Origin: Roseibium alexandrii DFL-11 | Lineage (GTDB): Bacteria > Pseudomonadota > Alphaproteobacteria > Rhizobiales > Stappiaceae | Assembly (NCBI RefSeq): GCF_000158095.2 | Contig: NZ_CM011002.1 | Location: 3,611,203-3,675,202 of the forward strand | Length of the DNA: 64,000 nucleotides | Direction of reading: 5' to 3' | Shown here: in pieces, positions 16,777 through 34,315 of the stretch | How the letters are laid out: every line of letters starts with the position of its first letter | Numbering within the stretch: position 1 is the stretch's first letter | Notes under the pieces: generated by a model | The model's database searches: none | What the model saw: only the letters and a program-made list of their open reading frames with translations | Told to the model about the DNA's origin: nothing | Program-made: the position numbers and the translations under genes

Positions 16777-17913
16777 CTAAGTCATCTGGCGGGCATAGCG
16801 CTCCAAATGGTGATCTGTATCGCCGAAAGCCTTTTCTGCGAACATGGCCCGTTTCACGTAGTCCCCAAGCTCATATTCGTCCGTCATGCCGATCCCGCCA
16901 TGCATCTGGATCGCATTTTGGCAGATCACCCGCCCCCGTTCGCCAAGGTAGACCTTGGCGGCAGACACGGCTTTTTTCCGAAGCGGGGCGTCCGGGCTAT
17001 CAGCGGTCATGGCTGCTTCAAAAACCAGTGACTTGGCATGCTCGAAATCGATCGTCATTTCGGCGAGCTGATGCTGAAGTGCCTGGAACTCGCCAATCGG
17101 ACGGCCGAACTGGGTGCGGACCTTGAGATACTCGGTCGTCATGGCAATGATTTTCTCAAGCGCTCCTAAAGCCTCTGCGCACAGCGCTGCCGTGCCAAGA
17201 TCTGCGACATGCTCGATAATGTCACCAGCCTTGTCTTTCGGACCAAGCATGTCCGATGCTGCCACTTGAACACTATTCAGCACAATATCCGCACCGATCC
17301 GGCCATCTGCAAACCGGTAGGGTTTTATCTCCACACCGCTTGCGGCTGGCCGCACAACGAACACGCTTAAGCCTTCCGGCTCAGCCGTGGCTCCGGAGGT
17401 TTGGGCCGACACGATCAGAATGTCCGCTGATGGAGCGCCGATGACCGCTGTTTTCCGGCCGGTGAGCCGGTAGCCATCGCCGTCCGGTTCCGCACGGGTC
17501 GTAACGCTTGAAAGGTCAAACCGGCTTTCAGGCTCCAAGAAACCGACCGCGGCACGTTTGGAGCCATCCGCAATGCCCGGCAGAAAAGCCTTTTTCTGAT
17601 CTTCTGTCCCAGCCAATTGAAGGGCGCCGCCGCCCAAAACAACGCTTGCCGTAAAGGGCTCGAGCGAAAGATGCCGTCCAAACTCGACGGCCGCGACCAT
17701 CGTGTCGACAGCCGTTCCGCCAACGCCCGCATAAGCCTCTGCGATCGGCAGGCCCAGCATTCCAAGCTCACCGAGCGCCGACCAGATCGCAGGATCATGA
17801 TACTGTTCCTCGGCAATGAGGGCTCTTCGGGCGGCCTGGCTGCAGCCATCGCTCAAAAGCTTGCCGAGACTGTCAGATATCAAGGATTGTTCTTCAGAAT
17901 AATTGAAATTCAT
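16777..17913 (-). CDS. Acyl-CoA dehydrogenase, small-subunit type
   Basis: A 378-residue flavoprotein of the acyl-CoA dehydrogenase fold. The start is at 17913 (MNFNYSEEQSLI), the usual first residues of the family; the open frame runs on upstream but overlaps the preceding gene. It resembles the small subunit of pimeloyl-CoA-dehydrogenase-like pairs, and the larger partner-like gene ends 13 bases upstream. The C-terminal MHGGIGMTDEY segment is present. It likely oxidises an acyl-CoA to the 2-enoyl-CoA with electron-transfer flavoprotein as acceptor, as a heteromer with its neighbour. Confidence 0.8.
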   Translation of the reverse strand: MNFNYSEEQSLISDSLGKLLSDGCSQAARRALIAEEQYHDPAIWSALGELGMLGLPIAEAYAGVGGTAVDTMVAAVEFGRHLSLEPFTASVVLGGGALQLAGTEDQKKAFLPGIADGSKRAAVGFLEPESRFDLSSVTTRAEPDGDGYRLTGRKTAVIGAPSADILIVSAQTSGATAEPEGLSVFVVRPAASGVEIKPYRFADGRIGADIVLNSVQVAASDMLGPKDKAGDIIEHVADLGTAALCAEALGALEKIIAMTTEYLKVRTQFGRPIGEFQALQHQLAEMTIDFEHAKSLVFEAAMTADSPDAPLRKKAVSAAKVYLGERGRVICQNAIQMHGGIGMTDEYELGDYVKRAMFAEKAFGDTDHHLERYARQMT

Positions 17914-17926
17914 GACGCCGGTCCGC

Positions 17927-19120
17927 TTAGCTGAGGAGTGCTTTTGAAATGATGTTTTTCTGAATTTCGGTCGAGCCGCCGTAGATCGTTGCCTTGCGGC
18001 GGTCGATGTAAGCTGGCATGCGCGGGATCGCGTAGTCCGGCCCAACTGTGCCGCTGTTCCACGCAGGATCCATAGCCGCTTGCTGCCATGGCAGGGCATG
18101 CACACCGACCGCATCCATTTGCAGTTCGGCAATGCGCTGCTGCACTTCAGTGCCCTTGATCTTCAAAACGGATGGGAAGGCCCCGTTCAGACCCGTGCCA
18201 CTGCCGCTCAGCATCCGCATGTTGGTGAGTTCCAATGCCCTGAGGTCGATCTCGAGCCGCGCGATCTTCGCCGCAAACAGCGGATCCTCGATCAAAGGCT
18301 TGCCGTTTTTCTTCTCTGTCCGGGCGATTTCCAGGAGCTTTTCAAACTCGGCCTTGCAACCGCCGACGCCGGCAATCCCGGTGCGTTCATGCCCGAGCAG
18401 GAATTTGGCATAGTCCCAGCCCTTGTTTTCTTCGCCGACCAGGTTTTCCGCCGGGACCCGGACTTTTTCCAGAAAGACTTCATTGACCGAATGCATGCCG
18501 TCAAACGTGATGATCGGACGGACGGTAATGCCGGGGGTTTTCATGTCGATCAGAAGGAAGGAGATTCCCTGCTGCTTCTTGGCCGCGTTGGGATCAGTGC
18601 GCACCAGGCAGAACATCCAATCGGAAAAATGAGCGTATGACGTCCAGATCTTTTGTCCGTTGACGATGAAATCGTCACCGTCGCGAACCGCTGCCGTTTT
18701 CAAGGAGGCCAAGTCCGACCCCGATCCGGGTTCAGAAAAGCCCTGACACCACGGGACTTCACCACGGGCAATCCCCGGCAAGTGACGGGCTTTCTGGTCC
18801 TCGCTACCGAATTCGATAATTACCGGGCCGACCATGTTAACGCCAAACGGCAGAACACGGGGCGCTCCTGCAAGGTAGGCTTCTTCATCAAAGATGTTCA
18901 CCTGCATCGGTGTCCAGCCGCAGCCGCCGTGTTCCTGGGGCCAGCGGGGTGCAAGCCAACCCTTTTGTCCAAGGATACGCTGCCAGCGCATGAAGTCCTC
19001 GCCATCGAGCTTTTGTCCTGCCCTAACCTTGTCGCTCAAGTCTTTCGGCAGTTCCGCCTCCAGGAAGGTCTTTACCTCGGAACGGAAAACTTCGTCTTCC
19101 GGCGTATAATTGATGTCCAT
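17927..19120 (-). CDS. Acyl-CoA dehydrogenase, large-subunit type
   Basis: A 397-residue acyl-CoA dehydrogenase starting MDINYTPEDEVFRSEV. It has the FAD/substrate motif FSEPGSGSDLASL and the C-terminal IYGGSTEIQKNII. Paired with the gene just downstream, it resembles the two-subunit dehydrogenases used for bulky acyl-CoAs (pimeloyl-CoA and steroid side-chain types). The pair follows a MaoC-like gene with a 72-base gap, and the three probably form one transcript from the promoter near 19730. Confidence 0.85.
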   Translation of the reverse strand: MDINYTPEDEVFRSEVKTFLEAELPKDLSDKVRAGQKLDGEDFMRWQRILGQKGWLAPRWPQEHGGCGWTPMQVNIFDEEAYLAGAPRVLPFGVNMVGPVIIEFGSEDQKARHLPGIARGEVPWCQGFSEPGSGSDLASLKTAAVRDGDDFIVNGQKIWTSYAHFSDWMFCLVRTDPNAAKKQQGISFLLIDMKTPGITVRPIITFDGMHSVNEVFLEKVRVPAENLVGEENKGWDYAKFLLGHERTGIAGVGGCKAEFEKLLEIARTEKKNGKPLIEDPLFAAKIARLEIDLRALELTNMRMLSGSGTGLNGAFPSVLKIKGTEVQQRIAELQMDAVGVHALPWQQAAMDPAWNSGTVGPDYAIPRMPAYIDRRKATIYGGSTEIQKNIISKALLS

Positions 19121-19192
19121 GCCTCACTCCCAATTTGTTTATCTGCCTCTACGCACCAACCGCTCCTCCAGCGGCTTTGACGCCGATAGCGT

Positions 19193-19654
19193 TTACCGTC
19201 CCGCGATGAGCCGTTTGGCGGTGTAGGTGATCACCGTTTCCCCGTTTTGATTGACGATGTCGTTGCGCGTCGTCACCACGGCGCGGTTGCCCTTGCTGGT
19301 CTGACGAACCTCCAAAACTTCCACGATGGCGTGAACGGTGTCGCCGGCCGTGACAGGCGCCAGAACCTTCTTGTCGACTTCCAGAAGCGCCAGCCCCGTC
19401 GCCTGGATCAGCGTCTGGCACTGGATGCCTTCGATCAATGTGTAGGTCAGCGCGGCGGGCGCTACTCGCCCCCTGGCCGCGACACCTTGCCCAAAGGTCT
19501 GATCGGTAAACAGGACTTCGGTCATTCCGGTCACACCGACGAAGGCGATGATGTCTGCCTCCGTGATCGTGCGTGCCAGCGTCCGGTACCGGTCACCAGC
19601 GGAAAAGTCCTGCCAGTAGAACCCCGGTCCGACGAGCCGTGGAGATCGTGTCAT
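19193..19654 (-). CDS. MaoC-like hot-dog protein lacking the hydratase dyad
   Basis: A 153-residue single hot-dog protein. The MaoC signature region is present (TITEADIIAFVG), but the catalytic Asp and His of R-hydratases are replaced: M44 and F49 in GMTEVLFTD stand where GDxNPLHxD is expected. It may be a structural partner, a CoA binder or a thioesterase-like protein. The start is taken at ATG 19654; ATG 19672 is an alternative. It leads an operon with the two-subunit dehydrogenase. Confidence 0.7.
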   Translation of the reverse strand: MTRSPRLVGPGFYWQDFSAGDRYRTLARTITEADIIAFVGVTGMTEVLFTDQTFGQGVAARGRVAPAALTYTLIEGIQCQTLIQATGLALLEVDKKVLAPVTAGDTVHAIVEVLEVRQTSKGNRAVVTTRNDIVNQNGETVITYTAKRLIAGR

Positions 19655-19726
19655 GCGTCTAAACACTCTCATAGGTGCGTGATCGGGGGTCAGGCCCACC
19701 CGAAAACGTTTTTCATAAGTATATTT

Positions 19727-19741
19727 ATTATTATATTGCGA
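19727..19741 (+). promoter_or_regulatory. Putative MarR-type operator, site 1
   Basis: ATTATTATATTGCGA matches 29543-29557 at 14 of 15 positions. It lies about 70 bases upstream of the MaoC-like gene in an otherwise GC-rich area, a position suited to promoter control. Confidence 0.45.
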
Positions 19742-19885
19742 ACTAATTTTCTGGCAAGCGTTTAAAGCGATCTGGTGGTTACAACCCTCCGGGCAGAGCC
19801 CCTTCAATGCGGCACGCGAAAAACCGCCGGCTTTGGTGGCCAACGCCTGGTTTCATGAAATTACAGAGAATAAGCCCGACCAGGC

Positions 19886-20332
19886 CTAAGCGCCGGTTCC
19901 GCTCAACCGGCCCTGAAGGTTCTGCCGTGCCTTGCGCAGGGTCGTGATCAGATGCTCAATGTCACTTTCATCGACACCCTCGAAGGTGACTTCATTCATC
20001 TGGCGCATACTTTCGCCGATCTTCTTCCAGACTTCCTGCATCTTCGGCGTCAGCCAAACACGTTTGGCCCGGCGGTCTTTGTCATCCGGCCGGCGTTCCA
20101 CATAGCCTTTGGCTTCAAGCCGGTCGACGAGACCGCTGATCGTGACCGTTCCGATATCCATCCGGGACGCAAGATCCGTCTGGGTGAGTCCATCATCCTT
20201 GTGAAGATGATTGAGCAGGAACACCTGCACATGGGTCAGGTCGTACTCGGTTGCCAGCTGATCAAACAGAATCCGGCGGAAACGGGCAATGTCGCTGAAC
20301 AAAGTACCAAGCTTGCGATCCAGGTCGTGCAT
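19886..20332 (-). CDS. MarR-family transcriptional regulator
   Basis: A 148-residue winged-helix regulator. The recognition helix segment TQTDLASRMDIGTVTISGLVDRLEA and the wing RRPDDKDRRAKRVWLT follow the MarR pattern. It is a clear paralogue of the regulator at 31431 (same length, shared DIARFR and MDIGTVT/MDVGTVT blocks). MarR proteins in CoA-thioester clusters usually repress until a CoA ligand binds. It follows the CoA-transferase gene by 162 bases. Confidence 0.88.
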   Translation of the reverse strand: MHDLDRKLGTLFSDIARFRRILFDQLATEYDLTHVQVFLLNHLHKDDGLTQTDLASRMDIGTVTISGLVDRLEAKGYVERRPDDKDRRAKRVWLTPKMQEVWKKIGESMRQMNEVTFEGVDESDIEHLITTLRKARQNLQGRLSGTGA

Positions 20333-20494: not shown

Positions 20495-21697
20495 TTACCG
20501 AGTTGTTTCCAGACATTTTGTGATTTCTGACGCAGAGAAGCCAAGTTCTTCCAGAACTTCGCGACTGTGCTGCCCAACCTGAAACGGCGGCTCTGCCTTT
20601 TGGTGCGGCCCGTCCTCGTTCGCCACGAATGGCGCACCAAGCAAAGTGACGGGGTCTGATGTGCAGTGTAGTTTCCCCGCTTCCACAAGCAGGCCGCGAT
20701 GGTCAAGCTGCGGGTCGGACAGCGCCTGGCCCAGATCACGAACGGCTTGGACGGGAACGCCATATGCTTTCAGGATTTTCAGCCAATCCTGGGTGGTTTG
20801 GCCACGCAGAACCGGGCGGATCAGCTCCCGGCCTTCTTCATGATGTTTGTGGCGGGCAAGCTCAGAGGAGAATCGCGGGTCCTCCAATAGCTCCGCAAGA
20901 CCGAGTGCCTTGAACGCCCCCTCCTGCTGATCTGAAGTCAAGGTGGCGAGCAGGATCATGCCATCCAATGTTTCGAACGTTCCGGCAGTCGGTTGGGTCA
21001 TCGGGGATTCATTGCCCATCAGGGGCGGCAGATGCCCTCGAACCAGATAGTCCGCCCCTTGGCAGCACATCAGCTGAAGGGCCGTGTCATACATGGCAAC
21101 GTCCAGAAACTGGCCTTTTCCGGTCATGGCCCGACGGTAGAGCGCTGCGGCTATGGCATAGGCCGCCGAAACGCCGGTTGTGACATCAACAAGCATGAAA
21201 CCGATCCGGGTCGGCCCTGTCTCCGGGAACCCGGTCAGCGACATCATCCCAGAATCTGCCTGTATCGCAGAATCATAAGCCTTTTCCGAAGCTCTTGGAC
21301 CGGTTTGCCCATATCCGCTGATGGAACAATAGATGACATCCGAATTGGCTTTTCGGACCGTCTCATAGTCGATGCCAAGTTTTTTCGCCGTTCCCGGCAC
21401 GAAGTTTTCAATCACAACATCCGCAGCAGAAACCAGCCTCTCGGCGGCTTCCTGTCCAAGCTCCGATTTCAAATCAAGGGCAAGGCTGCGCTTCCGAAGA
21501 TTGCCGGTGAGAAACGCCGGCGAGAGGCGTTTTTCCGCCATTTCAGGACTGGCCAGCACCCCGCGCAGCTGGTCTCCAACGCCGGGCGGCACGACCTTGA
21601 CGACATCCGCGTCGAGCAACGCCAGCATTTGCGCAGCCATCGGCCCTGAAAGCGCGCGGGTAAAGTCGATGACTCGCAGTCCCTTGAATGCCCGCAT
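20495..21697 (-). CDS. CaiB/BaiF-family (class III) CoA-transferase
   Basis: A 400-residue protein that opens with the family motif LRVIDFTRALSGPMAAQMLA. It has the class III core region ENFVPGTAKKLG, YCSISGYGQTGP and the LVDVTTG segment that carries the candidate nucleophilic Asp. It moves CoA between an acyl-CoA and a free acid without ATP. The start is one base after the stop of the ADP-forming ligase gene. The substrate pair is unknown; membership in a branched acyl-CoA cluster suggests activation of an incoming acid. Confidence 0.87.
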   Translation of the reverse strand: MRAFKGLRVIDFTRALSGPMAAQMLALLDADVVKVVPPGVGDQLRGVLASPEMAEKRLSPAFLTGNLRKRSLALDLKSELGQEAAERLVSAADVVIENFVPGTAKKLGIDYETVRKANSDVIYCSISGYGQTGPRASEKAYDSAIQADSGMMSLTGFPETGPTRIGFMLVDVTTGVSAAYAIAAALYRRAMTGKGQFLDVAMYDTALQLMCCQGADYLVRGHLPPLMGNESPMTQPTAGTFETLDGMILLATLTSDQQEGAFKALGLAELLEDPRFSSELARHKHHEEGRELIRPVLRGQTTQDWLKILKAYGVPVQAVRDLGQALSDPQLDHRGLLVEAGKLHCTSDPVTLLGAPFVANEDGPHQKAEPPFQVGQHSREVLEELGFSASEITKCLETTR

Positions 21698-21698
21698 G

Positions 21699-23840
21699 TC
21701 ACCTTACCGCCGGATCGCCGGCAAGCACCGTGGCTTTGGGAACAATGACTGCGTCCAAGGCAACAGCGCTGTCCGGCAGAACCACAAACGGATTGATGTC
21801 GATTGTTTCCAACCGGTCAGCATTTTCGGCTGCAAAGACCGACAGCCGGGACAGAGCTTGCGCCAGCGCCTTAACGTCCGCAGGCGGCGCGCCGCGTACA
21901 CCATCCAGCATTGCCCGCCCCTTGATCTCGCCGATCATGCGATGCGCTTCATCAATGCCGAATGGTGCCAGGCGGAACGTCACGTCCTTCATCACTTCAA
22001 CGAAAACCCCGCCAAGACCGAACATCACTGCCGGACCGAGCGCCGGATCATTCGTCACGCCCAGAACCGTTTCAACACCGCCTGAGACCATTTCACAGAC
22101 GAGCACGCCCTCTATTGTGGCATCTGGCTGGGCTTCCCGCGCCCGGTTCAGGATCACCTCAAAACCCTCGGCGATGGCCTGTTCATCATTCAGGTCAATC
22201 AAAACGCCGCCGATCTCGGTTTTGTGCAGAATATCCGGCGAGGCAATTTTCAAGACCACGGGGCCGCCAATCCCATGCCACGCCTTGACTGCTTCTTCGG
22301 CACTCTCCGTCAGGACGTCCCGTGTCACCGGGATGCCGGCGCTTGCCAGAATGGCTTTTGCTCCAGCTTCGGACACCAGCCGGTCCGGCACTTCAGACAC
22401 ACCTGCCGGAAGAGCTGAAGGCGTATCCGGCTGACCGCGTTCGAATGTTTCATAGAACTGGGAAAGGGCGGCCATTGCACGGATAGCCATGACCGGATCT
22501 TCGAAACAGCCAATGTTGAGCGCTTCATAGTCGGCAATGATTTCGGGTGTGGCGATCATGCTGAGCGCCATCGGCGTCTCCGGGTGTTTTTCCCGCAGGT
22601 CCTTGAAAGTCTGAAGGCAGAAGTCTTTGAGACCCGGCGCCTGCGGAGCGCTCGCAAGATAGGTGGCGTAGGCATCACAGCCGCTTTCGCGGATCGACAG
22701 ATCAATGCCCTGACCAATGACTTCCGGCTGGTTGAGCACCTGCCCGGTAATGTCGATCGGATTGCGCACACCAGCGTATGGGATCAGTCCCAGCAGTTTT
22801 TGCTGCAAAGCCTCCGGCATCGCCGGAACTTCCAAGCCGTTTTTGACAGATTCGTCAGCCATTTGAATGCCAATGCCGCCTGACACGGTCTGAATGGCCA
22901 TCTTCCGGCCCTTCGGGAAGAGCCCTGTCTGACAGGCATAAGCGACGTCGACCATTTCCTGGCAGCTGTGCGCCCGGTAGACGCCATATTGTTTGAAAAG
23001 CGCGTCGTAGATCGCATCATCACCAGCGAGACTGGCCGTGTGTGTCGCCGCAGCTTCTGCGCCCACATCCGTATCCCCAACCTTGATCATGATTACCGGC
23101 TTCTTCGCGGCGCGGGCCAGATCAAGGGCCGCACACATACGGTCCCGGTCCTTCACGCCTTCGGTGTAGGCCATGATGGTCGAGACATCCTGATGCTCAG
23201 CGTAATAAGCGATCACTTCGGCAACATCGATGTCCGATTCATTGCCGGTCGTCACCCAAAGGTCCGTTGCAACTCCGCGCCTTTGAGCCATGTAGAACAT
23301 GTGCGCGCCATAGGCCCCGCTCTGGCTGATGATCGCGGTTTTTCCCGGAGCGAGGCGCAAGCTGGCCTGAACGCTTGAAAAAGTACCGAACCAACCGGCA
23401 CTAACACTGAACGCTCCGATGCAGTTTGGACCAATCAGTCGCATCCCGGAGTTCTGGGCAGCTGCCGCGATCCGCTGCTGCGTTTCAGCGCCTTCCGCGC
23501 CTAGTTCGGCAAAACCGGAGCTAAAGATAATCGTGGACTTGGTGCCCATAGCTGCGCAGTCAGCTACGGTCTTTTCAACGAGAGAGGCAGGTACGGCGAC
23601 AATCGCGCAATCCACCGCTTCCGGCACATCGGTGATCGAGGGATAAGCCTTGAGCCCCTGCACTGTCGGCCGCTTCGGATTAACCGGATAGATCCGCCCC
23701 TTAAAGCCACCGGCGATCGTGCTGGCGACCGGCCGCCCACCAATCCGGCTTGCATCGTCGGAGGCGCCGATGATTGCGACCGACTGGGGTTTCAAGAGGA
23801 CATCAAGGCTGGCGCTGGTGGAAGGCAATACATCGGCCAT
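21699..23840 (-). CDS. Acyl-CoA synthetase, ADP-forming type (fused alpha/beta)
   Basis: A 713-residue NDP-forming acyl-CoA synthetase. The start at 23840 (MADVLPSTS) has a GAGTGAGGAA ribosome site. In order: a CoA-binding Rossmann domain (SVAIIGASDDASRIGGRP), a ligase domain with QSGAYGAHM and the likely phospho-histidine in THTASLAGDD, and a C-terminal ATP-grasp domain with LHKTEIGGV. Such enzymes interconvert acyl-CoA plus ADP and Pi with acid plus ATP and CoA, so they can activate acids or recover ATP. The gene sits between an AMP-forming ligase and a CoA-transferase. Confidence 0.85.
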   Translation of the reverse strand: MADVLPSTSASLDVLLKPQSVAIIGASDDASRIGGRPVASTIAGGFKGRIYPVNPKRPTVQGLKAYPSITDVPEAVDCAIVAVPASLVEKTVADCAAMGTKSTIIFSSGFAELGAEGAETQQRIAAAAQNSGMRLIGPNCIGAFSVSAGWFGTFSSVQASLRLAPGKTAIISQSGAYGAHMFYMAQRRGVATDLWVTTGNESDIDVAEVIAYYAEHQDVSTIMAYTEGVKDRDRMCAALDLARAAKKPVIMIKVGDTDVGAEAAATHTASLAGDDAIYDALFKQYGVYRAHSCQEMVDVAYACQTGLFPKGRKMAIQTVSGGIGIQMADESVKNGLEVPAMPEALQQKLLGLIPYAGVRNPIDITGQVLNQPEVIGQGIDLSIRESGCDAYATYLASAPQAPGLKDFCLQTFKDLREKHPETPMALSMIATPEIIADYEALNIGCFEDPVMAIRAMAALSQFYETFERGQPDTPSALPAGVSEVPDRLVSEAGAKAILASAGIPVTRDVLTESAEEAVKAWHGIGGPVVLKIASPDILHKTEIGGVLIDLNDEQAIAEGFEVILNRAREAQPDATIEGVLVCEMVSGGVETVLGVTNDPALGPAVMFGLGGVFVEVMKDVTFRLAPFGIDEAHRMIGEIKGRAMLDGVRGAPPADVKALAQALSRLSVFAAENADRLETIDINPFVVLPDSAVALDAVIVPKATVLAGDPAVR

Positions 23841-23854
23841 GAAACGTTCCTCAC

Positions 23855-25378: not shown

Positions 25379-25398
25379 GAACTCGGTACTCTTCCCGT

Positions 25399-26178
25399 TT
25401 AGTGGCCCAGAAAATTGGGCTTGCGGCTTTCACCGAAGGCACGAACGCCTTCTTCGAAGTCCTGGGTGTTGAAGGCCTTGCTTTGACAGGCTGCTTCCAG
25501 GCGCAAGGACTCATCAAGGGACGCCGATTGCGCGGCTGCGATTTCGCGCTTGATCAGGCCGAGGGCAACCGTTGGACCAGACCCGAGGCGCTGTGCCAGC
25601 GCAGTTGCAGTGTCCAGGACGCTGTCATCTTCCGTGACCTCGTGAACAAGGCCCCAATCCTTGGCAGTTTCTGCCTCCATCGATCCGCCAAGCATCGCCA
25701 GCGCCGTGGTACGCGATGCGCCGATCCGGTGCGTCAGAAGCGAGGAGGCCCCGCCGTCCAGGACTGCGCCGATCCGGGCGAAAGACAGGTGAAACTTTGC
25801 GGATTGAGCTGCAATGACGATGTCGGACGCGAGGACAATGGAAAAACCGGCACCGGCAGCTGGGCCATTGACGGCGGCAATGACCGGAACCGGCAAGTCC
25901 CGCAAGGCCTGAACCACCCGGTTGATCCCACCAAGGATTTGCGTCTCGATATGCTGGCGGCGCGCCAGGATCGTCTCAAGATCGAGATCGGCACCGCTGC
26001 AAAACCCGCGGCCAGCACCGGTGATCAAAACAGCGCGTACGCTCGGAGCATGAAGCTCTGAAAGAAGCTCCGACAACATGCCCTCGCGCATGTCCGTCGA
26101 CAGCGCATTCAACCGGTCCGGACGGTTGAGGGTCAGGCTCAGCACGCCGCTGTCCCGCTTTACAAGTAAATCGCTCAT
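25399..26178 (-). CDS. Enoyl-CoA hydratase/isomerase family protein
   Basis: A 259-residue crotonase-fold protein. The start at 26178 (MSDLLVKRDSG) has a GGAGGAG site directly upstream; the longer open frame does not. The oxyanion-hole regions are recognisable in GAGRGFCSGADLD and AAVNGPAAGAGFS. The third conserved region (FARIGAVLDGGASSLL) has Asp where classical hydratases carry the second catalytic Glu, so the reaction could be isomerisation, hydrolysis or C-C cleavage. It lies between the thiolase and ligase genes. Confidence 0.85.
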   Translation of the reverse strand: MSDLLVKRDSGVLSLTLNRPDRLNALSTDMREGMLSELLSELHAPSVRAVLITGAGRGFCSGADLDLETILARRQHIETQILGGINRVVQALRDLPVPVIAAVNGPAAGAGFSIVLASDIVIAAQSAKFHLSFARIGAVLDGGASSLLTHRIGASRTTALAMLGGSMEAETAKDWGLVHEVTEDDSVLDTATALAQRLGSGPTVALGLIKREIAAAQSASLDESLRLEAACQSKAFNTQDFEEGVRAFGESRKPNFLGH

Positions 26179-26234
26179 TGCTCCTCCCCAGGATGCTTTT
26201 ACAGGCGGCTCCTCCTGCCGCTTAGCTGTGACAA

Positions 26235-26262
26235 GGCCCGGCCAGGTATCAGTCACCGGGCC
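26235..26262 (-). terminator. GC-rich hairpin between thiolase and enoyl-CoA hydratase genes
   Basis: GGCCCGG (26235-26241) pairs with CCGGGCC (26256-26262) in the 105-base gap. There is no T run beyond TTG, so it is more likely an attenuator or RNA-stability stem than a full terminator. Confidence 0.35.
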
Positions 26263-26283
26263 CTGCCATCGCGATGGCGGCGT

Positions 26284-27489: not shown

Positions 27490-27501
27490 GTTCTTTCCTC
27501 C

Positions 27502-28989
27502 CTATTCGGCCGCTTCAGCTGGCGCGCTGGCCTGATCATCATTGTCTGGCGTTGCCTTCCAGAAGTACCGGCGGAAGCCACGGTTTCTGTCGTAGTCCTT
27601 CACCCGGAACATCAGCTTCATGGGCATGCCGACCGCCAGTTCCTGATCCGGGTCAACGTCGGTGAAATCGGCCATCAACCGGCCGCCGTCCTCGAACTGG
27701 ATCATGCCGTAATAGGCGGGCGGGTCCGGAGAGAAGGTCAGCCGGTCGGCCGTGAAGGAATTCAGCCGGGCCTTCTTGTCGGCAAACGCGTTGTCTTCCT
27801 GCGCGCCGATAGCGCCGCAATTTGGATTGACGCAAACATTGCTTTTGGGGAACTGCAGCGTGCCGCATTCACTGCAGCACCCTCCGATCATGCGCTGAGC
27901 CATGTCCCGGTTTCGATAGTGGGTGGAGAGGCCGGTTTGTTTGTCGACCTCCGCCCTTATGCCCTCTTCCACCGTGACCAGGCCATTGACGGTGAGAAAG
28001 CGAGCGTAGTTTGTGTCCGCCCGGCGGCGGGCCAGATGGCCGGAAACAGCGGTTCTCGGTGCAAGCTTTTCGATGGCGTCCGTCACTTCGAAGATCAAAG
28101 CATCGCAGCCTTGGCCAAAGCCGGTGACAAGGATTTTATCTCCGGGGCTGGCGGTTTCCAAAGCGTGGACCAGCATAATGACAGGATGGGCGGCCCCCGC
28201 TTCCCCGCAAGTGGCTTGGAGATTGTCGGCAACCGCCTCGTCCGCAAACCCCGCCTTCATGGCGAGCATGCTGGCGACCCGCTTCATGGCGGCCGGGAAG
28301 CAGAACGTCGTGACATCGCTTGCCGCAGTACCCGTTTTTTCAAGGACTGCGGTGATCGCCTCCGGAACGATTTTCAAATAGCCTTCATCGCGCAGCCAGC
28401 GCTCTTCCCAGGCATAGTCATACGCGTGGCCAGCCCCCCGGAAATGGTCGACAAAGTCGGCAGATACAGTGTGCGCCCCGATGAATTTCGCGACCACATC
28501 GCCTTTGCCCACAAGAACCGCCGCGGCGCCGTCGCCATAGGTCATTTCTTGCGGGCTGGCGGCCTTGGTCTTGCGTTGTTCGGATGCGGCAAAAAGAATT
28601 GGTTCTTCGGCGCCGGAAGCCGCTTGCAAGGCGACCGACAACCCGGAACTGCCCGCGCGCTGGGATGCTGCCAGATCGAGGGTCATCAACTGGCTTTTGA
28701 GGTTCAATGCTTCGGCAACCACACCGGCATTTTGCCGGTCGTCAAAAGGAAAGCTGGTGGATGCCATGAAAACCGCGGAGATCTCGGAGCGATCCAGCCC
28801 GGTCAAGCAATCCCGGGCCGCTTCCACTGCCATGGTGATCGCATCTTCGTCCCAGCTAGCGATCGTTCGCTCGCCTTTTGCCAATCCCTTCAAGCCGGGA
28901 TTGTACCAGCCGTGCATCTTGCTGATTTCAGCACGTTGCAACCGGCTTTGCGGCAAGTAACCGCCGAAGGCCAGAATTCCCAAGTCCAT
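27502..28989 (-). CDS. HMG-CoA-synthase-like protein fused to a zinc-ribbon/OB-fold (DUF35) domain
   Basis: A 495-residue fusion. Residues 1 to about 350 have the thiolase fold of HMG-CoA synthase, but the three catalytic residues appear lost: T78, Q110 and C230 stand at the positions of Glu79, Cys111 and His233 of the S. aureus enzyme (alignment by eye). A four-cysteine zinc ribbon (CCSECG...CVNPNCG, about 365-390) and an OB fold (to about 480) follow. In archaea, thiolase, HMG-CoA synthase and DUF35 form one complex; in steroid degraders DUF35 proteins pair with thiolase-like aldolases. It is probably a scaffold or unusual lyase working with the adjacent thiolase. Confidence 0.75.
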   Translation of the reverse strand: MDLGILAFGGYLPQSRLQRAEISKMHGWYNPGLKGLAKGERTIASWDEDAITMAVEAARDCLTGLDRSEISAVFMASTSFPFDDRQNAGVVAEALNLKSQLMTLDLAASQRAGSSGLSVALQAASGAEEPILFAASEQRKTKAASPQEMTYGDGAAAVLVGKGDVVAKFIGAHTVSADFVDHFRGAGHAYDYAWEERWLRDEGYLKIVPEAITAVLEKTGTAASDVTTFCFPAAMKRVASMLAMKAGFADEAVADNLQATCGEAGAAHPVIMLVHALETASPGDKILVTGFGQGCDALIFEVTDAIEKLAPRTAVSGHLARRRADTNYARFLTVNGLVTVEEGIRAEVDKQTGLSTHYRNRDMAQRMIGGCCSECGTLQFPKSNVCVNPNCGAIGAQEDNAFADKKARLNSFTADRLTFSPDPPAYYGMIQFEDGGRLMADFTDVDPDQELAVGMPMKLMFRVKDYDRNRGFRRYFWKATPDNDDQASAPAEAAE

Positions 28990-29018
28990 ATCGTTCCTCC
29001 TCGTGCGCCGTTCAGCGC

Positions 29019-29432
29019 TTATGCTTTCGGCTTCCTGTCAAACAGCTTGAATGCCCCGGATGCGGTGGCGATCAAGGTGCCGTCAGGCAGCGCAATTTCT
29101 CCTTCTGCAAAAAACACAGATCGGCCCCCACCGATCTTGCGGCCATGTGCCCGCAACAACCCCTTGCGCATCGGGGCGATGAAATTCGTGTTTAATGTCA
29201 GTGTCATGCAATAAAAGCGTGGTTCGGGAGGCGGGCGATAGCACCCGGCCATGCCACACGCGAAATCGAGTGCGCTCACCAGAACACCGCCATGGGTCAC
29301 GCCCATTACGTTGGTGTGATAGCTGTCGATCTCGACTTCGACACACGCATGATTGCGCTGCCATTCGGTCAGCTCGAACCCGACATGCTTGTTGAACTCC
29401 CCTATTGGCTCCGATGTCTCGGCAAGGGTCAT
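29019..29432 (-). CDS. PaaI-type hot-dog thioesterase
   Basis: A 137-residue hot-dog protein. The start at 29432 has a GGGAGAGG ribosome site; the open frame extends further upstream. The family segment THGGVLVSALDFACG (catalytic Asp in SALD) and FIAPMRKGLLRAHG are typical of acyl-CoA thioesterases that release trapped CoA. First gene of the minus-strand operon that runs to 20495, opposite the divergent SDR gene. Confidence 0.8.
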   Translation of the reverse strand: MTLAETSEPIGEFNKHVGFELTEWQRNHACVEVEIDSYHTNVMGVTHGGVLVSALDFACGMAGCYRPPPEPRFYCMTLTLNTNFIAPMRKGLLRAHGRKIGGGRSVFFAEGEIALPDGTLIATASGAFKLFDRKPKA

Positions 29433-29542
29433 GACCTCTCCCACTCTTGCGGCTCCAGCCATCGCCGTCATCCCAGACAGCACTGGTCAATGCATCAACT
29501 CTAGGCTGGATATTATATGTGTTGATTATTATTCGCAAGCGT

Positions 29543-29557
29543 ATTATTATTTTGCGA
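29543..29557 (+). promoter_or_regulatory. Putative MarR-type operator, site 2 (divergent promoter)
   Basis: ATTATTATTTTGCGA lies in the 198-base divergent promoter region between the thioesterase and SDR genes. A second similar half (ATTATTATTCGCAA) starts just upstream at 29525, so two overlapping sites may exist. Confidence 0.45.
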
Positions 29558-29630
29558 TACAAATTTAGCAGTTCGGCACATTGCGTGTCGAAACTGCCCG
29601 AATACTGAGGCCAAATACTGAGGGATGGGA

Positions 29631-30551
29631 ATGTCTGACAAAGCTTTGCTGGATGGAAAAGTCGCAATTGTCACCGGCGCGGGCCGCGGTGTCGGCCGGG
29701 AGATAGCTCTCTTGATGGCTCAGAAAGGCGCTAGCGTTGTGGTCAACGACCTCGGCGGGACCGGCGGCGGCGAGGGCGAGGACGCACTCCCCGCAACAGA
29801 AGTCGTCAACGAAATTAAGGCCGCTGGCGGAAACGCAGTTGCCAACTTCGACAGCGTCACCGACTCGGCAGCAGCCCAAGGTATGGTTGACCAGGCAATC
29901 GAAAACTTCGGCAAGCTCGACATCGTGGTCAACAATGCCGGCATTGTCCGGGACGCGATCTTTCACAAGATGACGGAAGACGAGTGGGATCAGGTGATCG
30001 CCGTCCACTTGAAAGGCGCCTACAATGTGAGCCGCGCCGCCGCGACCGTGTTCCGGGAGCAGCAATCCGGCCGCATGATTCACATGACATCCACGTCCGG
30101 ATTGATCGGCAACTTCGGTCAGGCCAACTATGCGGCGGCGAAACTCGGGATGGTCGGTCTGTCGCGTTCCGTCGCCCTCGATATGGCGCGTTACAATGTC
30201 ACGTCCAATGCGATCGGACCATTTGCCTGGAGCCGTCTTATCGGCACGATCCCGATCAAGTCCGAAGAAGAGCGCATTCGGGTTGAGCGCCTGAAGAGCA
30301 TGACCCCGGCAAAGGTCGCGCCGCTGGTTGCAGCTCTTGCCTCCGATGCCGCCCAGAACGTTAGCGGCCAGGTGTTTGTTTCTCGGGGCAGTGAGGTCAT
30401 GCTGCTCAGCCAACCGCGGCCGGTCCGGTCCATGGCGCGTCCTGACGGCTGGACGCCGGAATCCATTCTCGAACACGCATTCCCGGCTTTTTCCAGCACA
30501 CTTGTGCCTCTTGAGCGCTCGGCCGACGTGTTCTGCTGGGATCCGGTCTGA
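29631..30551 (+). CDS. SDR dehydrogenase resembling the HSD17B4 (multifunctional enzyme 2) dehydrogenase domain
   Basis: A 306-residue short-chain dehydrogenase. ATG 29631 is chosen over ATG 29625 because GAGGG lies 6 bases upstream. The cofactor motif TGAGRGVG (15-22), the NNAG motif and Y167-x3-K171 are intact. The VVVNDLGG segment after the second strand and the C-terminal extension are those of the (3R)-hydroxyacyl-CoA dehydrogenase part of peroxisomal multifunctional enzyme 2. The next gene, overlapping by one base, encodes the matching hydratase. Confidence 0.85.
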   Translation: MSDKALLDGKVAIVTGAGRGVGREIALLMAQKGASVVVNDLGGTGGGEGEDALPATEVVNEIKAAGGNAVANFDSVTDSAAAQGMVDQAIENFGKLDIVVNNAGIVRDAIFHKMTEDEWDQVIAVHLKGAYNVSRAAATVFREQQSGRMIHMTSTSGLIGNFGQANYAAAKLGMVGLSRSVALDMARYNVTSNAIGPFAWSRLIGTIPIKSEEERIRVERLKSMTPAKVAPLVAALASDAAQNVSGQVFVSRGSEVMLLSQPRPVRSMARPDGWTPESILEHAFPAFSSTLVPLERSADVFCWDPV

Positions 30552-31411
30552 TGGCCATCGACTATGACAAGCTGATGGACTGGCCCTTCGAAAAGGTTGA
30601 ACAAACCTATTCAATAAAGGACAGCATCATCTATGCCCTTGGCGTCGGATATGGCCATGACCCGGTCGACGAGGGGCAACTGCCCTTCGTTTTCGAGGAA
30701 GCCGATTTCAAGGCTGTTCCGACAATGGCCGTTGTACTGGCCGGGCCAGGTTTTTGGCTGCGCGATCCCGAGACTGGCATCGACTGGCGCAAGATCCTGC
30801 ATGGGGAACAAGGCATTCGCTGGCACAAGCCTCTGCCAAAATCGGCGACTGTCACAGCACGCACCCGCATCGCCCGCGTTCTCGACAAGGGGGCTGACAA
30901 GGGCGCGCTTATTTATTCCGAACGTGATCTCGTCGACAAAGCCACCGGCGATAAGCTCGCCACCTTGTCGTCGACCACCTTTGCGCGCGGGGATGGAGGT
31001 TTCGGCGGAGCAACCGGCCCGCAGCCGCAGCCGCACGAATTACCCGAGCGCGACCCTTGCGCTGTGTGCGATCTCCCCACAAGGCCGCATGCAGCGCTGC
31101 TTTACCGCTTGTCCGGCGACCCCAACCCTCTGCATGCTGACCCGAAGGTGGCCGCGGCAGCCGGTTTCAAAGCGCCGATCCTCCATGGTCTTTGTACTTT
31201 GGGGATCGCCGGACATGCGGTTCTGCGCAGCTTTTGCGAATATGACACGACCCGGCTGAAATCCCTGAAATTGCGGTTCTCAAGTCCGGTCTATCCAGGC
31301 GAGACCATCCGGACCGAGATGTGGCGGGATGGCGGCGTTGTCTCATTCCGGTCCAAGGTGCTGGAGCGCGATACGGTGGTTTTGAACAATGGATGCGTCG
31401 AACTGGGATAA
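30551..31411 (+). CDS. MaoC-family (R)-specific 2-enoyl-CoA hydratase, double hot-dog
   Basis: A 286-residue protein with a degenerate N-terminal hot-dog and a catalytic C-terminal hot-dog. The hydratase 2 motif is complete: D190, N192 and H195 in SGDPNPLHADP, then GFKAPILHGL. It is the layout of the hydratase part of HSD17B4. It hydrates trans-2-enoyl-CoA to the (3R)-hydroxyacyl-CoA that the upstream SDR would oxidise. Start and SDR stop overlap in TGATG. Confidence 0.88.
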   Translation: MAIDYDKLMDWPFEKVEQTYSIKDSIIYALGVGYGHDPVDEGQLPFVFEEADFKAVPTMAVVLAGPGFWLRDPETGIDWRKILHGEQGIRWHKPLPKSATVTARTRIARVLDKGADKGALIYSERDLVDKATGDKLATLSSTTFARGDGGFGGATGPQPQPHELPERDPCAVCDLPTRPHAALLYRLSGDPNPLHADPKVAAAAGFKAPILHGLCTLGIAGHAVLRSFCEYDTTRLKSLKLRFSSPVYPGETIRTEMWRDGGVVSFRSKVLERDTVVLNNGCVELG

Positions 31412-31430
31412 CAAAGAGGGAGGACGCGAA

Positions 31431-31877
31431 ATGGATGCAACGCTCGCGGCCTGCAAATCGATCTTTCAGGACATTGCCCGGTTTCGTGGCCTTCTTTTCG
31501 ATCGCCTCATCGCTCCCTATGGGCTGACCATGTCCCAGGCACGCGTGCTTTTGCACCTGCTTGCCGAAGACAAGCTGACCCAGTCGGACATCGCGCGCCG
31601 CATGGATGTCGGCACAGTGACGGTGGGTGGTCTTGTCGACCGATTGGAAGCACGCGGTCTGGTTGAACGCCGGGCCGATCCGGTCGACCGGCGCGCGAAG
31701 CGGGTTTGCCTCACGGACGAGGCCCGGCCTTTGGAAAAAATCATGGACGCATGCAGCACGGAAGTTGACGGAGCATCCTTCAAGGGCTTGCCGGAAACCA
31801 GCATTCACGTTTTGCTGTCCAACCTGCAAGCGGTCCGGCAGAACCTGCTTGAGACACTGAACAAAGATGCCGGCTGA
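31431..31877 (+). CDS. MarR-family transcriptional regulator (paralogue)
   Basis: A 148-residue winged-helix regulator that starts at 31431 behind GAGGGAGG; an upstream in-frame ATG overlaps the hydratase gene. The DNA-reading segment TQSDIARRMDVGTVTVGGLVDRLEA and the wing RRADPVDRRAKRVCLT are close to those of the regulator at 19886, so both may read the same AT-rich sites. Transcribed with the SDR and MaoC genes and followed by the racemase gene. Confidence 0.88.
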   Translation: MDATLAACKSIFQDIARFRGLLFDRLIAPYGLTMSQARVLLHLLAEDKLTQSDIARRMDVGTVTVGGLVDRLEARGLVERRADPVDRRAKRVCLTDEARPLEKIMDACSTEVDGASFKGLPETSIHVLLSNLQAVRQNLLETLNKDAG

Positions 31878-31910
31878 GCGCGGCGATAACAAAATCTGGG
31901 AGGACTGGGG

Positions 31911-33056
31911 ATGGGGCCACTTCACGGTGTGAAGATTGTTGAGTTTGCCGGTATTGGGCCTGGCCCTTACGGCTGCATGATGCTTGCCGATATGGGGGCC
32001 GAGATCCTGCGGATCGACCGGGAACCAACCGGGGCTTCGGACATTGAAGGCATTGACGAACAATGGAAAAACAGTGTTGCCCGTGGCCGAAAATCCATCA
32101 CGCTTGATCTGAAGGATCCTGCCGCCGTTGAAACCGCGCTCAAGCTGATCGAAAAAGCGGACGCCGTTGTCGAAGGTTTTCGCCCCGGTGTTATGGAGCG
32201 GCTCGGTCTTGGTCCGGACGTATGTCTTGGCCGCAACCCGGCGCTGGTTTACGCCCGCATGACCGGCTGGGGCCAAACCGGCCCTTTGGCGCATGCGGCC
32301 GGTCACGACATGAATTACATCTCGCTGTCCGGGGCCCTTTGGTCCTTCGGTGAAGACGGGCGCGATCCGGTGCCACCACTCAATCTTCTCGGAGATTATG
32401 GCGGCGGCGGCATGTTCCTCGCCTTTGGCATTGTGTGCGCCTTAATGCGCGCCCTAAACACCGGCGAAGGCGATGTGATTGATGCCGCGATATCAGACGG
32501 AACTGCGGCTTTGATGGCTCCGGTTTACATGTGGCTCGCCAACAACCGTTGGCAGAACCAACGGGCCAGCAATCGCTTGGACGGAACAGCGCCCTATTAC
32601 GGCGTGTACAAATGTTCCGACGGCAAGTGGGTATCGATCGCACCGATCGAGGAAAAGTTCTGGCAGCTGTTCCTGCATTTGCTGAAGCTTGACGAAGCGG
32701 ACATCGGCGACCGCCATGACACCCGCCAATGGCCGGACATCCGCCGCTGGTTTGAAAGCATCATCGGCGCACATCCACGCGATCATTGGTGTCAGCTGTT
32801 TGAAGGAACAGACATCTGTTTCGCGCCAATTCTGGACCTGGAAGAAGCTCCGGCTCATGCACACAATGCGGCGCGGGAGACCTTCGTGGAACGTGACGGC
32901 ATCGTTCAACCGGCCCCTGCCCCGCGTTTTCAGAATGCCAAAGCCACGTTGCCGTCCAGGCCGCCGCTCATAGGCGAACATAACGAGTCAGTGCTGCAGG
33001 ACTGGGGAGTGACTGGCGAAGACGCGCCGGTTTTGAGGAACAGCAGCGCAATCTAA
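31911..33056 (+). CDS. Alpha-methylacyl-CoA racemase-like protein (CaiB/BaiF fold)
   Basis: A 381-residue member of the class III CoA-transferase fold. The racemase catalytic pair is recognisable: H132 in AGHDMNY and D162 in GDYGGGG, 30 residues apart as in the M. tuberculosis enzyme (His126/Asp156). It would interconvert (2R)- and (2S)-methylacyl-CoA so that branched chains can enter S-specific acyl-CoA dehydrogenation. A GGGAGGACTGGGG leader precedes the ATG. An ordinary CoA-transferase remains possible but less likely. Confidence 0.82.
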   Translation: MGPLHGVKIVEFAGIGPGPYGCMMLADMGAEILRIDREPTGASDIEGIDEQWKNSVARGRKSITLDLKDPAAVETALKLIEKADAVVEGFRPGVMERLGLGPDVCLGRNPALVYARMTGWGQTGPLAHAAGHDMNYISLSGALWSFGEDGRDPVPPLNLLGDYGGGGMFLAFGIVCALMRALNTGEGDVIDAAISDGTAALMAPVYMWLANNRWQNQRASNRLDGTAPYYGVYKCSDGKWVSIAPIEEKFWQLFLHLLKLDEADIGDRHDTRQWPDIRRWFESIIGAHPRDHWCQLFEGTDICFAPILDLEEAPAHAHNAARETFVERDGIVQPAPAPRFQNAKATLPSRPPLIGEHNESVLQDWGVTGEDAPVLRNSSAI

Positions 33057-33100
33057 CACAACACGCTGAACCGAGGCGCACGGGCGGACTGGAGATGTGC

Positions 33101-33117
33101 TTGCGCAATTATATAAT
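33101..33117 (-). promoter_or_regulatory. Putative MarR-type operator, site 3 (TRAP promoter)
   Basis: Read on the minus strand, ATTATATAATTGCGCAA matches the 15-base core of sites 1 and 2 at 11 positions. It lies in a very AT-rich block (33105-33160) upstream of the TRAP genes. Weaker than the other two sites. Confidence 0.3.
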
Positions 33118-33250
33118 ATGCGTATAATTCGTATACTTATAATAATAGACCAAATGTATTGAGTTGTGAGGGAGCGAAACGCGGCGAACACACGCAGGCC
33201 GCATGGATCGGCACCTGTTTGGCCCGGTCCGAACACGGGAGGAGATAAAC

Positions 33251-34315
33251 ATGATTTCCATAAAGTCGGCCCTTTTGGGTCTGGGCTTGACCATCGCCAT
33301 GGCAGGCGTGGCATCCGCTGAAACCATGCTGCGCTATTCCGAAGCGGGCCCAAACCGGGGCGCCAGAGCCAAAGCCTTGCAGTATTTCCTGGATGAAGCG
33401 AGCCGCATGACAGAAGGCCGGCTAACCTTCGACGTGCATTGGGGCGGCGCGCTCCTGAAATGGTCAGCCGTGCTGAACGGAGTTGCCGCTGGCGCGGCCG
33501 ACATGGGAACCGTCATTGCCCCTTATTCGCCCAAGCAGCTTCAAGGCCTTGCAATCGGGGATCTGCCCATTTCGTCGTCTGACACCTGGGTCGGCCTCCG
33601 GGCAATGCACGAGCTGATGACAACGAACGAACAGCTCAAGGACTTCCTGGCCAAGGAAAACGTTGTCTTCCTCAGCAATTTCACCTCTACCGGCACCCAG
33701 TTTGAGTGCACCGGCGATCACACGATCGAAACGGCTGACGACTTCAAGGGACTCACGGTTCGGGCAACCGGAACGGTCGGCAAGGCGCTCAATGAGCTTG
33801 GCGCCAATGTCGTCAACATGACCTTTGACAAAGTCTATCAGGCACTTGATTCCGGTCTGGTCGACTGTGCTGCCGGTTACTACTACACGAACCGCGCGTT
33901 CCGGCATTATGAGATCGTCGATCACATCACCGAGGCAAACTGGGGCCAGGTCGGCGGCTTTGCCCTGGTCATGAACAAGGATGTCTGGGAAGACCTTCCT
34001 GCGGAGTATCAGAACGCGATCATGACCGCCGGATCCCAGATGATCGACGAGTTCGCCCGCATTCAGATCGAGACCATCAACGACGTGAAAGCCGGGCTTG
34101 CGAGCGGCGAAATCGGCCGTCAGGTGCCTGTGGTTGCGCTTGACGACGCTGAGCGCGCGAAGTTGCTCGCCATGACGGACAAGTATGTCCAGGAATGGAT
34201 CTCCGACATGACCGAACGGGGATATGACGGCCAGGCGATCTGGGATCAGTATGCCGTTCTCGTCGACAAGTATGCGGATGAGCTGAACACCAAAGGCTAT
34301 CCATGGGCACGGTGA
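33251..34315 (+). CDS. TRAP transporter substrate-binding protein (DctP family), cluster 1
   Basis: A 354-residue periplasmic binding protein. The start at 33251 follows a GGGAGGAG site; the signal peptide ends at AGVASA-ET. The DctP core is visible: VRATGTVGKALNELGANVV with the arginine that binds the ligand carboxylate, then the MTFDKVYQALDSGLVDCAAG segment. It delivers an organic acid to the membrane subunits encoded next. Likely the uptake system for the substrate of the surrounding acyl-CoA cluster. Confidence 0.9.
   Translation: MISIKSALLGLGLTIAMAGVASAETMLRYSEAGPNRGARAKALQYFLDEASRMTEGRLTFDVHWGGALLKWSAVLNGVAAGAADMGTVIAPYSPKQLQGLAIGDLPISSSDTWVGLRAMHELMTTNEQLKDFLAKENVVFLSNFTSTGTQFECTGDHTIETADDFKGLTVRATGTVGKALNELGANVVNMTFDKVYQALDSGLVDCAAGYYYTNRAFRHYEIVDHITEANWGQVGGFALVMNKDVWEDLPAEYQNAIMTAGSQMIDEFARIQIETINDVKAGLASGEIGRQVPVVALDDAERAKLLAMTDKYVQEWISDMTERGYDGQAIWDQYAVLVDKYADELNTKGYPWAR

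Follow-up and report, generated by a model that had tools for sequence, protein, structure and literature searches.

How a bacterium carries beta-oxidation past a methyl branch is the question raised by a cluster of acyl-CoA genes in Roseibium alexandrii DFL-11. The sea is rich in methyl-branched acids, which derive from sterols, terpenes, hydrocarbons and the side chains of chlorophyll, yet in Proteobacteria the enzymes acting at the branch are poorly assigned. The cluster lies in a window of 64 000 bases (bases 3611203–3675202 of contig 1, in a genome of 5.46 Mb), which is the whole stretch of DNA analyzed here; an earlier note on this sequence had described the cluster as a bacterial counterpart of peroxisomal branched-chain and bile-acid side-chain beta-oxidation. 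Our analysis leads us to regard it as probably an accessory, regulated module that takes 2-methyl-branched carboxylic acids or acyl-CoAs through beta-oxidation and ends in propionyl-CoA. With confidence somewhat short of even, we further propose that a dead scaffold, formed by a 3-hydroxy-3-methylglutaryl-CoA (HMG-CoA) synthase-like domain (HMGCS) fused to a DUF35 domain, lets the thiolase cleave alpha-branched 3-oxoacyl-CoAs. Together with a racemase and a multifunctional enzyme type 2 (MFE-2) split into two proteins, it would make up a proteobacterial route for 2-methyl-branched acids parallel to that of the peroxisome, with the branched ketone cleaved by a repurposed mevalonate-type complex. 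If this is true, the cluster provides a testable gene set, a role for the PRK06157 thiolase and its HMGCS-DUF35 partner, and a case of an HMG-CoA synthase fold turned scaffold in a breakdown pathway.

Gene identities were assigned with Pfam and NCBIfam profiles and by sequence searches of the PDB. The features of the cluster, which include a short-chain dehydrogenase/reductase (SDR) and a tripartite ATP-independent periplasmic (TRAP) importer, are as follows.

16777–17922, minus strand: acyl-CoA dehydrogenase, small subunit, pimD-like, true start near 17915 (Pfam; TIGR03203, 345 bits, below the cut-off of 653; PDB)
17927–19120, minus strand: acyl-CoA dehydrogenase, large subunit, pimC-like, with Glu245 in an HER motif (TIGR03204, 459 bits, below the cut-off of 624; best PDB match 4x28_A, 213 bits)
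19193–19843, minus strand: MaoC-type hydratase with a distant likeness to RipB/Ich (Pfam; NCBIfam, 52 bits, cut-off 340)
19886–20332, minus strand: MarR regulator 1 (Pfam)
20495–21697, minus strand: family III CoA-transferase, with Tyr where the racemase has His (Pfam, PDB, NCBIfam, alignment)
21699–23882, minus strand: NDP-forming acyl-CoA ligase (Pfam, NCBIfam)
23855–25378, minus strand: AMP-forming acyl-CoA ligase, PRK12406-like (Pfam; NCBIfam, 684 bits, cut-off 701)
25399–26256, minus strand: crotonase-fold hydratase/isomerase, PaaG-like (Pfam; NCBIfam, 240 bits, cut-off 345)
26284–27489, minus strand: thiolase of NF004810/PRK06157, with Cys88, H294DCF and H344 (696 bits, above the cut-off of 403; PDB, alignment)
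27502–28989, minus strand: HMG-CoA-synthase-like domain fused to a Zn-ribbon/OB-fold (DUF35) domain, 495 residues, with Gln110 and Thr78; proposed thiolase scaffold (Pfam, PDB, alignments)
29019–29483, minus strand: hotdog thioesterase, 4HBT (Pfam, NCBIfam)
29529–29548, no strand: AT-rich pseudo-palindrome between the divergent operons, candidate MarR site (conservation)
29625–30551, plus strand: SDR, 3R-hydroxyacyl-CoA dehydrogenase of MFE-2/HSD17B4 type, with S156, Y169 and K173 (Pfam, PDB, alignment)
30551–31411, plus strand: MFE-2-type hydratase 2, with D190 and H195 (Pfam, PDB, alignment)
31389–31877, plus strand: MarR regulator 2 (Pfam, locus comparison)
31911–33056, plus strand: alpha-methylacyl-CoA racemase, with H132, D162 and E247 (Pfam, PDB, alignment)
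33203–34315, plus strand: TRAP solute-binding protein DctP (Pfam, NCBIfam)
34303–34902, plus strand: TRAP small permease DctQ (Pfam)
34957–36300, plus strand: TRAP large permease DctM (Pfam, NCBIfam)

The minus operon is transcribed from 29483 to 16777 in the order thioesterase, HMGCS-like/DUF35 fusion, thiolase, crotonase, AMP-forming ligase, NDP-forming ligase, family III CoA-transferase, MarR, RipB/Ich-like MaoC protein and the two dehydrogenase subunits. The plus operon begins at 29625 with the SDR, followed by the MFE-2-type hydratase 2, MarR, the racemase and the TRAP importer, which ends at 36300. Every enzyme named in the earlier note was found in its place by the three kinds of search, and its gene set was right; the importer reaches beyond the end then given to the cluster, and the start at 18132 assigned to the small dehydrogenase subunit has to be moved to near 17915, where the start of the domain puts it. 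The fusion gene at 27502–28989 was absent from that account. The racemase, the MFE-2-type hydratase, the PRK06157-type thiolase and the fusion each occur once in the genome (the thiolase counted at E 1e-60 with six of 16 candidates scored, the fusion with nine of nine). Because all four of these single-copy genes of a 5.46 Mb genome lie inside 26284–33056, their grouping exceeds chance.

The protein encoded at 31911–33056 is, by family and residues, a true alpha-methylacyl-CoA racemase. In the test set beforehand by the earlier note, whether homology searches place it among plain CoA-transferases, it scored 363 bits against Mycobacterium tuberculosis MCR and 131 bits against the best CoA-transferase in the PDB. 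Its H132, D162 and E247 are kept in all seven racemase rows (the window and six loci) and correspond, with a constant shift of six, to the catalytic MCR residues His126, Asp156 and Glu241 named in PMC12682127. Pfam finds seven proteins of the family III CoA-transferase fold in the genome, three others being in the window and three elsewhere; all six non-racemase members carry Tyr at the His position. The genome thus holds one racemase, and none of the other CoA_transf_3 proteins was retained as a second candidate.

The closest solved relatives of both the SDR and the hydratase are, by sequence, eukaryotic MFE-2 proteins. The best PDB matches of the SDR, 2et6 and 1zbq among them, are the MFE-2 enzymes of yeast, human, fly and rat. 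The hydratase best matches 1s9c, a peroxisomal multifunctional enzyme type 2 (191 bits), and is the sole protein of the genome with PF22622, which it matches above the cut-off. Its D190 and H195 are conserved in every one of the 12 aligned rows with a letter there, and S156, Y169 and K173 of the SDR are found in at least 95% of 15 rows. The two genes overlap by one base, as the earlier note had described for an HSD17B4-like SDR and its MaoC hydratase. The MFE-2 parts are thus carried here on two genes, and Pfam finds no SCP2 match in either.

The thiolase passes NF004810 (PRK06157) with 696 bits against a cut-off of 403, and Cys88, the HDCF motif and His344 are present in at least 97% of 72 rows. 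It carries a Cys nucleophile together with HDCF and GHP motifs, which we take to mark SCP2-type thiolases, and to this extent the earlier description as an SCP-x-type thiolase stands. In the PDB, however, the SCP2-thiolases rank below three other matches, namely 7yvy (named an 'acetyl-CoA acetyltransferase'), the thiolase from the archaeal HMGCS complex 6esq, and BbsB (7pxp), and the HMGCS-DUF35 partner is nearly constant. In the fusion protein, the N-terminal part is nearest to archaeal HMGCS and PhlA and the C-terminal part to an archaeal DUF35 protein and PhlB. The catalytic Cys of the synthase aligns to Q110 and the catalytic Glu to T78. Over 79 rows, the Cys position is Gln in 60 and Cys in none, and the Glu position is Thr in 69 and Glu in none. 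The possibility that 27502–28989 encodes a working HMG-CoA synthase was rejected, as both residues are replaced in all 79 rows. Among four candidate zinc-binding cysteines, C372 is present in all 79 rows and the other three in 55 or 56. The same two residues are missing from PhlA (Gly115 and Cys83 in their places), and residues of PhlC alone contact the substrate, PhlA and PhlB being thought necessary for the complex, according to PMC6392133. By analogy with PhlA, we infer from the loss of both synthase residues that the HMGCS-DUF35 fusion is an inert scaffold. The best NCBIfam profiles name the thiolase and the fusion merely 'acetyl-CoA acetyltransferase' and 'hydroxymethylglutaryl-CoA synthase'.

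The two adjacent homologous dehydrogenase genes match the profiles for the large and small subunits of pimeloyl-CoA dehydrogenase, well under the cut-offs. The large subunit is nearest in the PDB to 4x28_A and to Tcur3483; we take 4x28 to be the ChsE4–ChsE5 complex, and 4x28_A and Tcur3483 to be steroid enzymes. The best match of the small subunit is 5ol2_C (147 bits), the partner chain 4x28_D (105 bits) not being its nearest relative. An alpha2beta2 form and a role in M. tuberculosis are reported for ChsE4/5 in PMC8399759. The pair is thus of the two-subunit type, as first proposed. The comparison of the first step with ACOX2/3 fails, however, as the enzyme here belongs with the acyl-CoA dehydrogenases, ChsE4 and pimeloyl-CoA dehydrogenase being its relatives, and the profile matches listed for the window contain dehydrogenase families only and no acyl-CoA oxidase. 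Because the mammalian step is catalyzed by an oxidase, the parallel to mammals at this step is one of function only.

From the family identities, catalytic residues and gene linkage, which are direct results, we infer the substrate, the direction, the scaffold role and the propionyl-CoA product of the following route. The TRAP importer would take up a carboxylate, and a CoA ester would be made from it by one of the ligases or by the CoA-transferase. Judging by family, the racemase would interchange 2R and 2S epimers for a stereospecific dehydrogenase, which would form the 2-methyl-enoyl-CoA; by family and by the logic of MFE-2, hydratase 2 would convert this to the 3R-hydroxy form and the SDR would oxidize the latter to the 2-methyl-3-oxoacyl-CoA. 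The thiolase, seated on the HMGCS-DUF35 protein, would split this product into propionyl-CoA and a shortened acyl-CoA, with the HMGCS-like domain, both Claisen residues gone, presumably serving as a scaffold instead of a catalyst, as its sequence and the PhlABC precedent suggest. The propionyl-CoA could be handled by members of the methylmalonyl-CoA mutase family, of which the genome encodes three. An alpha-branched substrate fits this arrangement, as branched CoA esters, benzoylsuccinyl-CoA among them, are the substrates of known thiolases and aldolases that work with a DUF35 partner.

A scan of genome contigs with the fusion protein, from which the best 80 of 81 confirmed stretches were used, gave 79 distinct loci (numbered L here, with genomes numbered G) in Alpha-, Beta- and Gammaproteobacteria, Myxococcota, Desulfobacteraceae and Rokuibacteriota. 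In 75 of the 79, the fusion gene is followed on its own strand by a PRK06157-type thiolase (at least 50% identity), within 200 bases in 61 and at 0.5–2 kb in 14; the remaining four are L053, where the stretch stops 0.8 kb past the fusion, L068, L072 and L096. Both the thiolase (at E 1e-60) and the fusion (at E 1e-30) occur in 51 of 289 alphaproteobacterial genomes, the set of 51 being identical for the two, and the fusion gene is close to 54 of the 57 thiolase copies. In raw counts, the racemase is found in 47 of the 51 genomes with the pair versus 43 of the 238 others, and the MFE-2 hydratase in 41 versus 26. Within the own family, Stappiaceae, the fusion (at least 89% identity) and the hydratase (at least 90%) are found in the same five of 87 genomes, so that the module is accessory there; at least five further family genomes have a hydratase at 44–54% and no fusion.

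The gene arrangement recurs as well. The nearest relatives at the locus are L018 (Alphaproteobacteria bacterium AO1-B) and two Labrenzia records, of the family Stappiaceae. A racemase–hydratase–SDR block faces the fusion–thiolase operon in L018–L020 (Labrenzia type), in L028, L031 and L032 (Roseobacteraceae) and in L105 (family f149); the six Labrenzia-type and Roseobacteraceae loci all have a MarR gene as well. The enzyme set as a joint functional parallel to the peroxisomal one is upheld by this recurrence of the same genes together in other lineages. The SDR, hydratase, fusion and thiolase form one run in L049 (Variovorax) and L108, and an independent cluster, L104 (G346), joins a hydratase, an SDR, pimCD-like dehydrogenases, a TRAP importer, the thiolase, the fusion and a racemase. 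Open reading frames (ORFs) in GC-rich loci were called heuristically and include false ones; the hydratase of L104 was overlooked in this way and was placed by the genome search. In L095 (Desulfobacteraceae, 7691–12730), a 740-residue hydratase 2–SDR–SCP2 protein is followed by an HMGCS–DUF35–SDR–SCP2 protein and then by the thiolase. The first of these contains all three MFE-2 domains in another order; nearly all of the 120 matches listed for it have hydratase 2, SDR and SCP2 domains, and those with names are mostly from Desulfobacterota. Fusions of this type are possibly relevant to how eukaryotic MFE-2 arose. For a tree of the HMGCS-DUF35 fusion, 32 proteins were hand-picked to span the groups from 84 (the window, 78 loci and five further regions); the window falls into a 14-member clade together with Roseobacteraceae, Sneathiella, family f149 and other Alphaproteobacteria, and the deepest forks are weak.

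Several observations weigh against a dedicated module built on an inert scaffold. A Cys lies two residues past the synthase Cys position in 13 of the 79 fusion proteins and may be an alternative nucleophile there. The counts over the 289 genomes ignore kinship and genome size, and a limited number of candidates was scored per genome. In L106 and L112 (G280, family f149) the SDR, hydratase and MarR genes are in place, with the racemase about 17 kb away on the other side. Within flanks of at most 10 kb, and often shorter, a nearby racemase (at least 50% identity) was found in just six of the 79 loci and a hydratase (at least 35%) in 11; either the pair serves additional pathways or its partners lie elsewhere. 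Racemase and thiolase are less than 30 kb apart in 12 genomes, with mfd and recG between them in eight (assigned by Pfam in L099 and by likeness to L099 in the others). In these eight the proximity looks like plain synteny, and reading all 12 as clusters was rejected.

Three genomes of about 1.4 Mb (that of L107, G135, together with G260 and G356) keep the thiolase–fusion pair and the racemase, the hydratase being found in G135 and G356 only. Retention in genomes of this size suggests a useful core role for the pair and the racemase.

The 141-base gap between the divergent operons contains a block that is identical in the window and in L018–L020 and includes TTATTCGCAAGCGTATTATT at 29529–29548. 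This element occurs once in the window, where the next best copy has five mismatches, and it recurs upstream of the SDR in L105 and L106 with three and four mismatches, respectively. It is likely to be a MarR site, and one MarR protein probably controls both operons from this single site. A search of the other intergenic regions for MarR-like sites gave a single candidate, an AT-rich palindrome at 33123–33147, ahead of DctP, that resembles the element to a limited extent. Between DctM and a convergent GNAT gene, a 26-base inverted repeat (36312–36374) contains two nested hairpins, perhaps a two-way terminator.

Which acid enters such a module is a separate matter, and the distal genes bear on it. 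For the CoA-transferase, the RipB/Ich-like protein and both dehydrogenase subunits, the best NCBIfam profiles are those of diacid enzymes, all below cut-off. Soluble carboxylates are the usual cargo of TRAP systems, and these genes together with the importer suggest an acid of fair solubility. The substrate may therefore be an alpha-methyl-branched dicarboxylate, or an alicyclic or aryl acid, rather than a long isoprenoid, with the diacid remainder processed by the pimCD-like dehydrogenase, the RipB/Ich-like hydratase, the glutarate/oxalate-type CoA-transferase and the NDP-forming ligase. That the independent lineage L104 also joins pimCD-like dehydrogenases and a TRAP importer to the thiolase–fusion pair is in keeping with this. 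We nevertheless consider the diacid substrate doubtful, as the profile scores fall far short of equivalog level, the matches of the NDP-forming ligase are to ligases for hydroxybutyrate, acetate and hydroxypropionate instead of diacids, and the core common to other lineages is not always accompanied by these distal genes.

A second substrate, again possible and again rather unlikely, is an acyclic terpene or isoprenoid acid of the citronellol, geraniol or phytol type, where the racemase module would deal with 2-methyl branches and an Atu-type carboxylase with 3-methyl branches. AtuA is encoded at 60% identity or more in L028, L031 and L048, in part at the ends of L022, L023 and L025, and at 32–36% identity in L062 and L075. 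Six Sneathiella loci have a biotin-dependent acyl-CoA carboxylase, and a crotonase of L028 has gamma-carboxygeranoyl-CoA hydratase as its third-best profile (159 bits, cut-off 426). Among isoprene degraders, Mcr mutants are reported, in a secondary citation, to be unable to use polyisoprene and methyl-branched isoprenoids. The AtuA and carboxylase loci point to terpene substrates in some relatives. Set against this are the 71 of 79 loci with no AtuA match at E 1e-20 in the stretch examined, the NCBIfam name of the L024 carboxylase, which is not geranyl-CoA carboxylase, and the lack of an AtuA match in the R. alexandrii genome, in a search in which all 14 controls were negative too.

Degradation of sterol or bile-acid side chains as in M. 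tuberculosis or Comamonas is improbable. The large dehydrogenase subunit is indeed nearest to 4x28_A and Tcur3483, and the racemase to MCR, but the thiolase retains its Cys, a residue missing from the aldolases Sal and Ltp2. HsaA, the sole steroid-ring marker searched, reaches at best 31.6 bits in this genome against a cut-off of 450 (none of the 14 controls passed it either), and no steroid gene cluster was recognized in the window. Of the isoprenoid or sterol-like origin first suggested for the substrate, the isoprenoid part thus has indirect backing from AtuA in the loci of some relatives, and the sterol-like part has no support, given the HsaA score and with the same reservation about its controls. 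That these are everyday acyl-CoA enzymes which share no pathway and were brought together by chance or by general catabolic clustering is highly improbable: acyl-CoA enzymes commonly cluster and a second acyl-CoA cluster adjoins, but the rarer genes recur in three families in the same divergent layout, and the fusion and hydratase occur in the same five of 87 family genomes.

The module for 2-methyl-branched acids that we favor can be placed among known systems. Mammalian peroxisomal branched-chain beta-oxidation employs AMACR, ACOX2/3, MFE-2/HSD17B4 and SCPx. The racemase, hydratase 2 and 3R-dehydrogenase of the window belong to the same families, and its thiolase is related to the SCP2-thiolases; it differs in having a dehydrogenase in place of the oxidase, MFE-2 on two genes without SCP2 and a thiolase paired with HMGCS-DUF35. 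With M. tuberculosis it shares the racemase and a two-subunit dehydrogenase (MCR and ChsE4–ChsE5), MCR going with a stereoselective first oxidation step there (PMC12682127 for MCR). In contrast to cholesterol side-chain degradation in that organism, the window has an MFE-2-type hydratase and SDR, another type of thiolase and an HsaA score under cut-off. The archaeal thiolase/DUF35/HMGCS complex (6esq) and the PhlABC acylase (5m3k), which transfers acyl groups to phloroglucinols, consist of the same three protein families and are among the best PDB matches. In archaea the three parts are encoded together, as in the window, but there the HMGCS has its active Cys and Glu, whereas the window has lost both, fuses the HMGCS-like and DUF35 parts and sets them in a catabolic neighborhood. 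PhlABC likewise has an HMGCS-like subunit without Cys and Glu, with PhlA and PhlB separate in place of one fused chain. Of BbsAB, Sal/Shy, Ltp2/ChsH2 and IpfDE, those with Sal, Ltp2 and BbsAB also join a thiolase-fold enzyme to a DUF35 domain; BbsB ranks third among the PDB matches of our thiolase, and IpfDE is named a thiolase, with IpfE as a DUF35 protein. In the BbsAB/Sal/Ltp2 group, DUF35 stands alone or on a MaoC hydratase, in contrast to the HMGCS-like domain here.

The functional parallel of the earlier note is therefore well supported by the MFE-2 halves, the racemase test and the recurrence of the genes, but a bacterial counterpart is not new, given the precedents of the M. tuberculosis sterol side chain and the polyisoprene degraders. 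What is new here is the module with a fused HMGCS-DUF35 scaffold, a variant of known chemistry. Within the open-access literature, judged mostly from listings, we found no paper on the thiolase–fusion pair in catabolism, and the word 'racemase' does not occur in passages of a proteome paper on pristane-grown Alcanivorax.

The second acyl-CoA cluster (37003–51644) comprises two ordinary and two AidB-like dehydrogenases, a PRK12406-type ligase, two CoA-transferases and its own TRAP importer, with an IclR regulator at 47268–48038. An ORF at 47238–47969, antisense to this regulator and with no Pfam match, was rejected as a gene. Beyond it, 53626–61248 carries genes of a V/A-type ATPase (A, B, D and I-like subunits and a DUF2764-like protein), which is unusual for an alphaproteobacterium. 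A molybdopterin oxidoreductase with ferredoxin and DmsC-like subunits is encoded at 1967–8171 beside a BCCT transporter, and TadE/TadG-like pilus genes and a polysaccharide lyase (PF14099) directly precede the cluster at 12869–16688.

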